Assembly: GCA_017302715.1 (NCBI GenBank)
Contig: JAFLCD010000001.1
Location: 1 to 64,000, forward strand
Reading direction: 5' to 3'
Source: Deltaproteobacteria bacterium
GTDB taxonomy: Bacteria; Bdellovibrionota; UBA2394
DNA length: 64,000 nucleotides
Both the position numbers and the translations under genes were made by a program. Shown piece after piece: positions 44,681 to 49,233 of this stretch. The notes under the pieces were generated by a model. The model ran no database searches and was not told the DNA's origin. It saw only the letters and a list, made by a program, of their open reading frames with translations. Every line of letters begins with the position of its first letter. Position 1 is the stretch's first letter.

Positions 44681-45838
44681 TTAGACCTGTTCTACGCTGA
44701 ATTGAAGGGGTCTTTCAGGAGCATTTTCAGGTCTCAAAATCTTCAATTTTTGTGCGCCCAAATCTACCAACTTAAAGCCCGAAAATTTACTGTGAAGTGC
44801 CTTCACTTTATTCACTTCAGCGGTCGTTACAAAAAGTTGGCCGGGATAATTCGACAGGTACTCCACAAGCGCCTCTACTCTTTGGTCGTCGAGCTCAGAA
44901 ATAATATCATCCAAAAGTAAAATCGGACTCCAGTTGCGATGATCTCTGGTCAATTCAAGTTGAGCGACTTTTAAAGCGATAACAATTCCACGAATTTGAC
45001 CCTGACTGGCGTAATCTCTCGCCTCCATTTGATCGATTTTAAAAATCAAATCATCTCGATGAGGGCCAACCAAAGTGTAGCCCACCGCTTTTTCAGCATC
45101 GCTTAGTTGATCAATTTTTTCTGAAAGTGCGCCAGCTACATCATCCTCTGTGGATAAACTGTGCTTGTAAGTTACCGAAACAGATTCGTTGATTTGAAAA
45201 AGATCTTTAAAAATTTTATTTAATTTTTCATTCAAGATACTGACAGTTTTAAATCTCTCTTTATAAAGAGGAATCGCTGCATCTAAAAATTCTTTTGTCC
45301 AAATCGAATATTCTTCAAAACAACTTCCACCATTTTTGATGAGATTAAGAAGTTTATTTCTCTGTTTTAAAACGCGCTCAAATCTTTGAATTATTTTTAA
45401 AACTGAAGGATCTAAACCAATACTCAACTCATCTAAGAAATCCCTGCGTCCATCAGGACCGCCTTTGATGAGATAAAGATCATCAGGACCAAACGAAACA
45501 CTGCTACCTAAAAATGGAAATTTAGATCGCGGAGTAATTTGTTTTTCATCCATCTTAATAGCTTTTCGATGAGCTTCGATGGCTAAAACAATTTTACTCG
45601 CAGTAGGTGTGTAAAGTTTTATAGTGACCGAGGCTTCCGTTTTTCCATTTTGAATGAGTTCTAAATTTTTTGATGTTCGAAAACTTTTTAAACTTGTGAT
45701 GAGAGCTAAGCTCTCAAGAATGGTGGTTTTTCCTCGAGCGTTTGGCCCAACAAAAATATTCAAATTAGAATTTAAATCTTCGACAGAAAATTCTTCAAAT
45801 TTTCTAAGTTGATGAAGTCTGATCGAGGAAACTTGAAT
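44681..45838 (-). CDS. recF: RecF recombination mediator with probable ATT start codon
   Basis: 385 residues if translation begins at an ATT (45838, or the preceding ATT at 45841). RecF loads RecA at single-strand gaps. Walker A GPNARGKTT, the signature region ASQGQIRGIVIALKVAQLEL and Walker B ILLLDDIISELDDQ are intact. The first ATG/GTG/TTG in frame is a TTG at 45763, which would delete the conserved N-terminal strand (IRLHQLRKFEEF) and begin just before Walker A. The extension to the ATT pair restores the usual RecF opening and has AGG six bases before the second ATT. The dnaN stop is 20 bases upstream. Confidence 0.88.
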   Translation of the reverse strand: MQVSSIRLHQLRKFEEFSVEDLNSNLNIFVGPNARGKTTILESLALITSLKSFRTSKNLELIQNGKTEASVTIKLYTPTASKIVLAIEAHRKAIKMDEKQITPRSKFPFLGSSVSFGPDDLYLIKGGPDGRRDFLDELSIGLDPSVLKIIQRFERVLKQRNKLLNLIKNGGSCFEEYSIWTKEFLDAAIPLYKERFKTVSILNEKLNKIFKDLFQINESVSVTYKHSLSTEDDVAGALSEKIDQLSDAEKAVGYTLVGPHRDDLIFKIDQMEARDYASQGQIRGIVIALKVAQLELTRDHRNWSPILLLDDIISELDDQRVEALVEYLSNYPGQLFVTTAEVNKVKALHSKFSGFKLVDLGAQKLKILRPENAPERPLQFSVEQV

Positions 45839-45858: not shown

Positions 45859-47022
45859 CTAATAGGTTGTTTCATTTCCTAATTGCATTGGCATGACGAT
45901 ATTCAGTGAACCGTCGAAATCTTTTCCTTTAATAAGGCTTGGCGATAAAACGTCCGTGAGTTCTAAAACGACTTCTTCTTGTTGATTCATTGCATTTAAA
46001 ACGTCGAGAAAATATCCGGCATTAAATCCTATTTCAATACCATCCCCTACGTAATCAACATCAATATCTTCTTTCGCTTCGCCTAATTTAGGATTGCTTG
46101 AAGAAAGACAAAGTTTTCCTTTTTCAAATTGAAAACGAACCGATCGAGAATGTTCTGCAGAAAGGACAGAAATTCTTTTAAGAGATGTAAGAAGTTGATC
46201 GCGTCTAATTTGAATTTTTCTATCATTATTTTTTGGAATAACTGGAGTGTAATCAGGAAAATCTCCATCTAAAAGTCTCATGAAAAGCGTTGTTTGTTTT
46301 TGTGGATTCCAAAAAACAATATTGTTTTCCATGAAACAACAAGAGAGCGAACCTTCTTCAGATAAAACTCTCTTTAATTCAAATAAACCTTTTTTAGGAA
46401 GAATGACTCCATGATCAATATGAACATCTTTCAAGCCTTCAACTTCTTGATCCATCATCGAGAGTCGATGTCCGTCAGTTGCAACCATTCGAAGATAAAC
46501 TTTTCCTTTAGCTTTAATTTGCTCAAGAAAAACTCCGCTTAAATCGTATCGAGTTTGATCATTCGAAACAGCGAAGATAGTGTGATCAATCATTCGAATA
46601 AAATTTTCACTTGGAATATTGAATGATTTTTCTTTTACCACTTGTGGAAGTTGAGGAAACTCATCTGAATCTTGACCAACAAGTTTGAAAAGACTTTTTC
46701 CGGCAGTAAGCTCTACCCAAAAATTATCAAAAACTTTGAATTTAACATTGGAATCGATAGGAAGTTCTTTAACGATTTCGTATAAACTTTTTGCAGGAAC
46801 GGTGATTCGACCTGGCTGAGAAATTTTTCCTGGATAAACGCATTTAATTCCAACTTCTAAATCAGTGGCAGAAAAAACGAGTTGGTTTCCGTCAGCTTCA
46901 ATTAATAAATGACTGAGAATCGGAATCGTATTCTTTCGATCCACGATAGATTGAACCCTTTGAAGAGCCTTCAAAAGAACTTCTCTATTAACTTCGAAGC
47001 CAGCTATTTCTTTAGTTGCCAT
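45859..47022 (-). CDS. dnaN: DNA polymerase III beta sliding clamp
   Basis: 387 residues, three clamp domains. Seen: QRVQSIVDRKNTIPILSHLL, FSATDLEVGIK, LPQVVKEKSFNIPSENF, VATDGHRLSMM (conserved clamp motif), LLDGDFPDYTPVIPK, and a C-terminus ending in VMPMQL plus a six-residue tail, instead of the usual MPMRL-type end. It forms the ring that tethers polymerase III. It lies on the dnaA strand across the origin, in the common dnaA-dnaN-recF-gyrB-gyrA order. Confidence 0.97.
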   Translation of the reverse strand: MATKEIAGFEVNREVLLKALQRVQSIVDRKNTIPILSHLLIEADGNQLVFSATDLEVGIKCVYPGKISQPGRITVPAKSLYEIVKELPIDSNVKFKVFDNFWVELTAGKSLFKLVGQDSDEFPQLPQVVKEKSFNIPSENFIRMIDHTIFAVSNDQTRYDLSGVFLEQIKAKGKVYLRMVATDGHRLSMMDQEVEGLKDVHIDHGVILPKKGLFELKRVLSEEGSLSCCFMENNIVFWNPQKQTTLFMRLLDGDFPDYTPVIPKNNDRKIQIRRDQLLTSLKRISVLSAEHSRSVRFQFEKGKLCLSSSNPKLGEAKEDIDVDYVGDGIEIGFNAGYFLDVLNAMNQQEEVVLELTDVLSPSLIKGKDFDGSLNIVMPMQLGNETTY

Positions 47023-47124: not shown

Positions 47125-47200
47125 GGGCCTGTAGCTCAGCTGGGAGAGCACCACACTGGCAGTGTGGGGGTCATCGGTTCGATCCCGATCAGGTCCACCA
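47125..47200 (+). tRNA. tRNA-Ala (anticodon GGC)
   Basis: 76 bases fold as a full cloverleaf. The acceptor GGGCCUG pairs with CAGGUCC and includes the G3:U70 pair that marks alanine tRNAs. The D arm is GCUC/GAGC, the anticodon loop CUGGCAG gives GGC (reads GCC/GCU), the T arm is AUCGG/CCGAU around UUCGAUC, and CCA is encoded at 47198-47200. It lies between dnaN and the DnaA-box array, on the strand opposite to dnaA and dnaN. The first DnaA-box-like 9-mer starts 3 bases after it. Confidence 0.98.
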
Positions 47201-47724
47201 TTTTATCAACAGCCTATTTTTTCTAATTTAAATTTTTTCCTAAAGAGTAGTAGTAGAGAAGGCTTTTCTGTTCGTAAGTATGTAAATATATGAAATTATT
47301 AAACAATTTATGAACAGCTCTGTTGATAATTACGCACAACTTTCCCTGTTGATAGGATTTTTATGCACAAGAGAGCCTAGTTATAAACAGGGTGTTCATA
47401 AGATTGCACAGGCTCTGTGCATAAATTTTGTAAGTTATGCACAGCTGTTGATAACTTTAGAGTTCATATTTGAAAAATTTCTGAAACCTTAAGATATTAT
47501 GTCGATGCCTGTGCATAACTTTAGTCATCTTGTTAATTTATATAATAATTTCAATATATTACAAAAATATAACCTGTTGATAGATCTGTGCATAAACCTG
47601 TTCATAATGCTGTGCATAAAAAAAAATCGTTGAGTTATGCACGAGTTATGCACAATTTTATGCACAGGATGTGTAGTGTTCAAGACACGTGAATTTCAAA
47701 AAAATAAAAATTTTTTAAAGTGAA
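47201..47724. other. oriC: Chromosomal replication origin (oriC) with a dense array of variant DnaA boxes
   Basis: No gene lies between the tRNA and dnaA. Eight exact TTATGCACA 9-mers are present: plus strand at 47361, 47435, 47646 and 47658; minus strand at 47416, 47510, 47587 and 47611. TTATGCACG is at 47635. Related forms are TTATCAACA (47203; minus 47321, 47446), TTATGAACA (47308; minus 47393, 47599) and TTATAAACA (47381). The textbook TTATCCACA does not occur. AT-rich tracts at about 47524-47572 and 47696-47717 are candidate unwinding elements. Position between dnaA and dnaN, and genes diverging from here, support origin function. Confidence 0.9.
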
Positions 47725-49233
47725 TTAAGCGCTGACCTGCTTAAGACTTGTTTCAAGTTTTGCGATGCTTTCTTTAAGAAGCGGATCGGTTCCTTGAACT
47801 TTGCTGATTCTTCGAATGGCATGCAAAACCGTCGTGTGATTTTTTCCGCCAAAAAGCGTTCCGATATCTGGCAAAGAAAGATGCGTATATTTTCGACAAA
47901 GATACATCGCCAATTGTCTCGGAATGGCGAGCTGTCTATTTTTTCTTTCTGAGCGAAGATCTTCGAGGCTTACTTGATATTGTCTCGCCACCAATTTCAT
48001 AATTTCTTCTGGATCGCGATGAAATTGATTCATTTCAACCGGTTCTTCTTTCAAAACTTTTTTTGCGAGCTCTAAATTTATTTCGGATCCAGTCAGAGAT
48101 GCAAAAGCGCTAAGCTTCAACATGGCTCCTTCGAGTTCGCGAATATTCGATCTATAAATTTTTGCTAAAAAGAAGGCGACGTCTTGAGAAATTTGAATTC
48201 CATCGAGCTCCGCTTTCTTGAAGATAATTGCGACGCGCGTTTCCATTTCTGGCGCTTGAATATCAACAATGAGACCCATCTCAAAGCGGCTTCGCAAGCG
48301 GTCTTCCAGGCCCTCAATTTCTTTTGGTGGACGATCTGACGAAAGTACAATTTGCTTATGATGTTCGTAGAGAGCGTTGAATGTGTGAAAAAATTCTTCC
48401 TGTGTTCTTTCTTTTCCAGAAATAAATTGAATGTCGTCGATGATAAGCACATCACAATTTTTTCTATATCGATCGCGAAACTCTTCCATTTTTTCGAAAC
48501 GAATACTTTCGATCATATGGTTCGTGAATTTTTCGAAAGTTGTATAATGCACTCGCGTAGTCGGAAATTTTTCTAGGATTTTCAATCCAATTGCATTTAA
48601 CAAATGTGTTTTTCCAAGTCCCACATCTCCGTAAATGAAAAGCGGATTGTAATGTCGCCCAGGAGCTTCAGCCACCAAGAAACTTGCAGCATGAGCAAAC
48701 TGATTACTGGTACCAACGACGAAAGTTTCAAATCCATATTTCGTATTGAGAACCGCATTTGCAGAAAGAGATCCTTTTAAGTTTTTAGAAGGAGGAATCA
48801 CTAAACTAGGCTTCGGACGAATTTCCTCTAGAGGAAGTGACGGCGCCTTTGCCTTTATTTCCATTAAAGAGGCCGGAATTGTAGGCTTTGTCTCAACCTC
48901 AAATTCTAGCTTAAACAAATGATGAGACGCTTCATCGAAACGCTCTTGAATCAAAACGGAATAGTGATCATAGACCCAGTCTCTATAAAAGCGGTCTGGG
49001 AAACCCAAAACCAATATATTATCCTTTGATTTCAATAACTTAATGGTAAGTATGAAAGACTGAAAATATTGGGGCCTAACGATTTTTTCAATGGACTGAA
49101 GGGTTTTATCCCAGGCGATTCGCATCTCATCTGAAATGCCATTATCAGGTTCACCACCCAGTTCTGATGCTGTTTCTCGACCTTCCAGTGGAATTGTCTC
49201 GACGCTTTCTTGATTTTCCAGAAACTCTGTCAT
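47725..49233 (-). CDS. dnaA: Chromosomal replication initiator DnaA
   Basis: 502 residues from the ATG at 49233, with AGGA 7 bases upstream; a longer in-frame start at 49335 adds an unrelated basic leader. Domain I is at about 35-110, a linker to about 160, then the AAA+ core with GDVGLGKTHLLNAIG, DVLIIDDIQFI and LRSRFEMGL. Domain IV ends with LSLPDIGTLFGGKNHTTVLH. The usual recognition helix reads GGRDHTT; here Lys-Asn replaces Arg-Asp (Asn near residue 465), at a position that contacts bases in E. coli DnaA. This may go with the unusual box sequence in the adjacent origin. Confidence 0.97.
   Translation of the reverse strand: MTEFLENQESVETIPLEGRETASELGGEPDNGISDEMRIAWDKTLQSIEKIVRPQYFQSFILTIKLLKSKDNILVLGFPDRFYRDWVYDHYSVLIQERFDEASHHLFKLEFEVETKPTIPASLMEIKAKAPSLPLEEIRPKPSLVIPPSKNLKGSLSANAVLNTKYGFETFVVGTSNQFAHAASFLVAEAPGRHYNPLFIYGDVGLGKTHLLNAIGLKILEKFPTTRVHYTTFEKFTNHMIESIRFEKMEEFRDRYRKNCDVLIIDDIQFISGKERTQEEFFHTFNALYEHHKQIVLSSDRPPKEIEGLEDRLRSRFEMGLIVDIQAPEMETRVAIIFKKAELDGIQISQDVAFFLAKIYRSNIRELEGAMLKLSAFASLTGSEINLELAKKVLKEEPVEMNQFHRDPEEIMKLVARQYQVSLEDLRSERKNRQLAIPRQLAMYLCRKYTHLSLPDIGTLFGGKNHTTVLHAIRRISKVQGTDPLLKESIAKLETSLKQVSA

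Follow-up and report, generated by a model that had tools for sequence, protein, structure and literature searches.

Few DNA signals in bacteria are as conserved as the DnaA box. In its published R-type consensus, TTWTNCACA, position 5 is usually regarded as unconstrained. The oriC of Bdellovibrio bacteriovorus (Makowski et al. 2016, PMC5124646) occupies the dnaA-dnaN gap and carries about eight boxes together with DnaA-trios in its unwinding region; its box consensus, NN(A/T)TCCACA, has C at position 5. The basal unwinding system (BUS) of Bacillus subtilis likewise combines a box cluster with DnaA-trios by an AT-rich stretch (PMC10721633). In Epsilonproteobacteria, T is fixed at position 5 with the Asp433-His434 pair of DnaA kept, changes of domain IV DNA-contact residues are suspected at 435, 438 and 439, and C5 boxes are bound less strongly by the H. 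pylori protein (PMC5043019), so that a position-5 preference peculiar to one lineage is already known from a case without any change at residue 433. Position 5 has been described as not important for binding by the E. coli and M. tuberculosis proteins (PMC5043019), it is absent from the listed base-specific DnaA contacts (positions 2, 3, 4, 7, 8 and 9; PMC6727663), and the bases reportedly touched by D433 and L438 in E. coli are those at position 7 (PMC8235120). On TTAT boxes, E. coli DnaA, which carries Asp433, ranks the bases at position 5 as C > A or G > T (PMC5835720), so that an Asp-type DnaA already accepts TTATGCACA at an intermediate level.

The window analysed here, a stretch of 64,000 nucleotides, comes from a genome of 2.39 Mb in 19 contigs and includes its dnaA-dnaN region. 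From its gene order (cf. PMC5124646) we infer a Bdellovibrio-like placement at the level of the phylum; a search of genome contigs with the DnaA of the window found mainly Bacillota, Nitrospirota and others rather than close relatives. The comparisons below centre on the family of the window (f1), in which dnaA was found in four genomes, the window genome itself (G000), G002, G003 and G004. Between dnaA and a tRNA gene at the dnaN-side edge of the origin lies a gap of ~520 bp with boxes on both strands (Table 1). A tRNA-like sequence of similar kind, read from the sequence rather than from a tRNA scan, occupies the same place in G003 and G004.

Table 1 Features of the predicted origin and its neighbours in the window
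Feature	Position	Strand	Basis
dnaN	45859..47022	-	gene order as in Bdellovibrio (PMC5124646)
tRNA-Ala(GGC), dnaN-side border of origin	47125..47200	+	
oriC (predicted): intergenic DnaA-box cluster and unwinding region	47203..47724	.	boxes, trios, GC skew
TTATCAACA, one-mismatch box	47203..47211	+	
AT-rich stretch adjoining trios, candidate duplex unwinding element	47212..47247	.	inference
DnaA-trio array TAGTAGTAG (CTACTACTA on dnaA strand)	47248..47256	+	
TTACGAACA, degenerate box-like 9-mer, candidate trio-proximal box	47269..47277	-	12 nt from trios
TTATGAACA, one-mismatch box	47308..47316	+	
TTATCAACA, one-mismatch box	47321..47329	-	
DnaA box TTATGCACA	47361..47369	+	exact match
TTATGAACA, one-mismatch box	47393..47401	-	
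DnaA box TTATGCACA	47416..47424	-	exact match
DnaA box TTATGCACA	47435..47443	+	exact match
TTATCAACA, one-mismatch box	47446..47454	-	
DnaA box TTATGCACA	47510..47518	-	exact match
DnaA box TTATGCACA	47587..47595	-	exact match
TTATGAACA, one-mismatch box (position 6 A)	47599..47607	-	
DnaA box TTATGCACA	47611..47619	-	exact match
DnaA box TTATGCACA	47646..47654	+	exact match
DnaA box TTATGCACA	47658..47666	+	exact match
dnaA, chromosomal replication initiator, 502 aa	47725..49233	-	ORF, domain and alignment evidence

An earlier note on this DNA had described an origin with eight exact TTATGCACA boxes on both strands and no TTATCCACA, and both counts hold. The eight copies in the dnaA-dnaN gap compare with 0.34 expected in the whole window (mean of dinucleotide shuffles), and 0 of 100 dinucleotide shuffles of the window reach eight; TTATCCACA is absent from the gap, its sole copy in the window lying at 45149, inside recF. 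The gap also holds nine one-mismatch 9-mers, seven of which are TTATNAACA, and by sequence it contains TTATGAACA three times, TTATCAACA three times and TTATAAACA once. This box cluster and the inflection of the cumulative GC skew, with its minimum at 48-50 kb of the window, are those of a dnaA-dnaN type origin. As in Bdellovibrio bacteriovorus (PMC5124646), the origin lies in the dnaA-dnaN gap between the same gene neighbours, with about eight boxes and DnaA-trios in the unwinding region, whereas the C at position 5 of the Bdellovibrio consensus is not shared. The arrangement of a DnaA-trio array beside boxes and AT-rich DNA is that of a BUS, and the array recurs at the corresponding place in G002, G003 and G004, thus in all f1 genomes, as well as in G035, a genome outside the family. 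Unlike in Bacillus subtilis (PMC10721633), the candidate trio-proximal box of the window is degenerate: in place of the two co-oriented boxes that come immediately ahead of the trios in a BUS, the window shows only TTACGAACA, 12 nt away, and clearer pairs are present in G003 and G035. Like the R-type box of E. coli, TTATGCACA fits TTWTNCACA, with G as N. The C that is usual, although not strictly defining, at position 5 and is preferred by E. coli DnaA occurs in none of the eight window boxes and in 8 of the 42 exact boxes of f1, in which G dominates. Apart from box position 5, the origin is canonical in its box cluster, DnaA-trios, AT-rich stretch and GC-skew minimum. One locus of G003 (L145; G003:C13:31500-36600) has ~1.1 kb of extra DNA between dnaA and the box cluster, which keeps 12 G and 3 C boxes and the DnaA-trios.

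To compare genomes, we counted the base at position 5 of exact TTATNCACA, in the dnaA-dnaN gap for f1 and near dnaA for Asp-type loci, where some sequence upstream of dnaA was included. The 42 exact boxes of the four f1 genomes have G in 32, C in 8 and A in 2 (G000, 8 G; G002, 6 G and 1 A; G003, 12 G and 3 C; G004, 6 G, 5 C and 1 A), and none has T, which sets them apart from the Epsilonproteobacterial T5 type. The tally for Asp433 loci is C87 T17 A12 G4 in the same phylum (76 non-redundant loci), where G is the rarest base (4/120), and C168 T50 A26 G19 in other phyla (71 loci). Outside the origin, the 63 TTATNCACA of the window's whole genome are distributed as T27 C17 G14 A5. Because just 14 of these 63 have G, the eight out of eight in the origin do not reflect background (0.22^8, ~6e-6), and the same counts rule out a genome-wide preference for G. 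The contrast in G5 between f1 and its Asp-type relatives in the phylum is large (Fisher p ~9e-21), and G5 is also markedly depleted in the phylum's Asp-type origins compared with background (4/120 vs 14/63, p ~1e-4); since boxes from one clade are not independent observations, these p values describe the contrast rather than count separate events. Thus G5 is disfavoured in Asp-type origins, against background, and favoured in those of f1, so that the position-5 preference has shifted. The shift in the base used by the f1 origin is clear, and the observation is more general than the window, marking the whole family.

The clustering of these boxes follows the same boundary. Every one of the four f1 genomes has tandem TTATGCACA pairs (within 30 bp); outside f1, they occur in a single further genome of the 369 from the phylum, in 1 of 279 genomes in the phylum of Marinomonas and in 1 of 280 in the phylum of Siminovitchia; at an origin, they occur in f1 only (928 genomes, three phyla). 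The tandem G boxes of G094, G727 and G393 are not at dnaA and were rejected as origins. The earlier idea would have been undermined by relatives with the usual helix that also use TTATGCACA; no Asp-type relative was found with a TTATGCACA cluster at its origin. The box layout differs among the four f1 genomes and the C-terminal parts of their DnaA proteins are roughly 72-78% identical, which means that G5 persisted while the arrays were rearranged. These data bear on the possibility that tolerance and lineage drift account for the pattern, with an f1 DnaA that binds TTATGCACA adequately and G5 spreading by duplication, gene conversion or mutation bias at unchanged specificity. The E. coli ranking obtained with an Asp433 protein (PMC5835720) is compatible with such tolerance, as are the N at position 5 of the published consensus and the mixture of 6 G and 5 C boxes in G004. 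However, position 5 is not neutral in the Asp-type origins of the phylum, where G is the rarest base, and G is dominant in f1 across different genera, layouts and flanks. We therefore regard drift as a possible but doubtful account, and a shift in the binding preference of the f1 DnaA as likely from the sequence comparison.

The window DnaA matches PF11638, PF00308 and PF08299 above cut-off and thereby has the domains I, III and IV of a canonical DnaA. Its domain IV helix reads FGGKNHTTVLHA and carries the signature GGKNHTT, as the earlier note had stated, with Asn at the position of E. coli D433, in contrast to the KDHTT or KDHST seen in related DnaA proteins of the phylum that have Asp. Lys at residue 432 is ordinary in the phylum (75%); the unusual residue is Asn433, found in all four f1 DnaA proteins vs Asp in 118 of the 131 others aligned, so that the usual, although not strictly defining, Asp433 is missing from the family. 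Asn433 and G5 boxes accordingly co-occur in 4/4 f1 genomes with dnaA, the association that the earlier note had proposed to look for within the phylum. Further domain IV differences of f1 include an acidic residue at 397 (Glu or Asp, present in 2% of the others aligned), residue 428 and some distant sites; in the window, the basic loop SERKNR has Glu397 and Lys399 (E. coli numbering). The R399K replacement was rejected as the cause, since Lys399 also occurs in Asp433 relatives with C or other boxes (f4, f5, f10 and f13), as was acidic 397 alone as a sufficient change, because L194 and L203 combine Glu397 with Asp433 and have C or T boxes. The pair of acidic 397 and Asn433 is confined to f1 if one considers genomes with TTATNCACA boxes near dnaA; G005 (L177, family f2) also has Asp397 and Asn433, but no TTATNCACA near dnaA.

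Asn433 itself reaches beyond the family. A DNA pattern detected it in at least 5 of 369 phylum genomes, the four of f1 and G035, a lower bound because the pattern required Phe-Gly-Gly before the motif and missed f2, whose glycines differ; the same pattern gave 0 of 349 genomes in Bacillota. Alignment adds the four members of family f2, G005, G013, G020 and G027. In a tree of DnaA domains III-IV, f1 forms a clade and f2 is separate, and G035, whose fragment is too short for the tree, is placed through its Asp-type family f4, found in another part of the tree; three or more independent origins of Asn433 in the phylum are therefore most likely. In G035, 10 boxes have C and 2 have G, with G not significantly above its Asp-type neighbours (p 0.6). 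In f2, no TTATNCACA lies in the first 1 kb downstream of dnaA or the first 0.76 kb upstream of it (in G027, within the readable 222 bp and 480 bp). Asn433 is therefore not sufficient for G5 boxes. The f2 genomes (L175 G013, L176 G020, L177 G005 and L028 G027) are small and have an AT-rich dnaA-dnaN gap with only a few TTATCAACA/TTATGAACA-like 9-mers, and their origin signal may be degenerate or located elsewhere.

These lineages weigh on the simplest version of a matched change, in which replacement of Asp433 by Asn alone would switch the preference from C5 to G5. Such a switch would fit the Asn of all four f1 proteins and the lack of clustered G boxes in Asp-type relatives, and an amide could donate a hydrogen bond to the O6 of G, which a carboxylate cannot. 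Yet Asn433 occurs with C boxes in G035 and without TTATNCACA near dnaA in f2, both separate lineages, and D433 is reported at position 7 of the box (PMC8235120). We consider the single replacement improbable. The notion of Asn433 as the matched reader of position 5 finds no support in E. coli DnaA either, an Asp-type protein that binds TTATGCACA. Of the matched specificity shift proposed earlier, what survives is a shift, clear in the boxes and likely in the protein, as the position-5 bias points to a real preference; what falls, through G035 and f2, is Asn433 as its sufficient cause. Box and residue each changed on the f1 branch, and their association is one evolutionary event within the phylum. 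A shift with a single occurrence on the tree does not allow any residue to be assigned by comparison, and no single DNA-contact change in f1 is tied to G5 in this way.

As the reading that we favour, at a probability of roughly 55%, the f1 origin would keep the common plan, its position-5 preference having moved from C to G through combined residue changes in DnaA, followed by turnover of the boxes. The R-type box array would recruit DnaA, which would then load onto the DnaA-trios beside the AT-rich unwinding region. Most likely, the f1 DnaA came to bind G5 preferentially, or at least as well as C5, by combined changes of its DNA-binding surface, namely Asn433 and the acidic residue 397, which might act together, and perhaps others, and the boxes would have turned over to match the changed protein. 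In this reading, binding by DnaA is what would select G5, and these residues would be its cause. The nearly even numbers of C and G boxes in G004 (5 vs 6) speak against this explanation, as does the description of position 5 as unimportant to the E. coli and M. tuberculosis proteins (PMC5043019). A stronger form, in which the f1 initiator prefers TTATGCACA over TTATCCACA by virtue of Asn433 and acidic 397, and the origin would be at least partly orthogonal to the near-universal DnaA box, is put forward only tentatively. Selection of G5 by a second factor, such as a regulator or methyltransferase that recognises the core TGCA or GCAC produced by G5, appears very improbable. With G5, every such box contains the palindrome TGCA, and 8 of the 10 TGCA in the gap lie within exact boxes, but TGCA is scarce outside them, the Dam-type domain PF02086 was not found in three f1 genomes, and the N6/N4-methyltransferase domain PF01555 is not common to these three (one strong match in G003, one sub-threshold match in G000, none in G004). 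Methylation at TGCA was rejected, as no Dam- or CcrM-type enzyme is common to the f1 genomes examined.

The f1 box is a lineage-specific DnaA-box variant. It resembles the T5 boxes of Epsilonproteobacteria (PMC5043019) in its lineage-specific position-5 preference and in the suspected involvement of domain IV DNA-contact residues, and differs from them in its base, G instead of T, and in the loss of the Asp433 that they keep beside His434. Set beside Asn433 relatives that keep C, the f1 genomes with their change from C to G offer natural material for studying the joint change of an initiator and its many binding sites, and origin finders scoring only TTATCCACA will underrate such origins.

Two further observations concern DnaA elsewhere. 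More than one gene with the DnaA C-terminal domain is present in several genomes of the phylum, in families f3 and f9. In Acidobacteriota-type records (L039, L073, L075, L085, L087, L095 and L099), DnaA has Lys-His-His at 432-434 and Asn at the position of Arg399, so that two base-contacting residues are changed together, and few TTATNCACA are present near dnaA.
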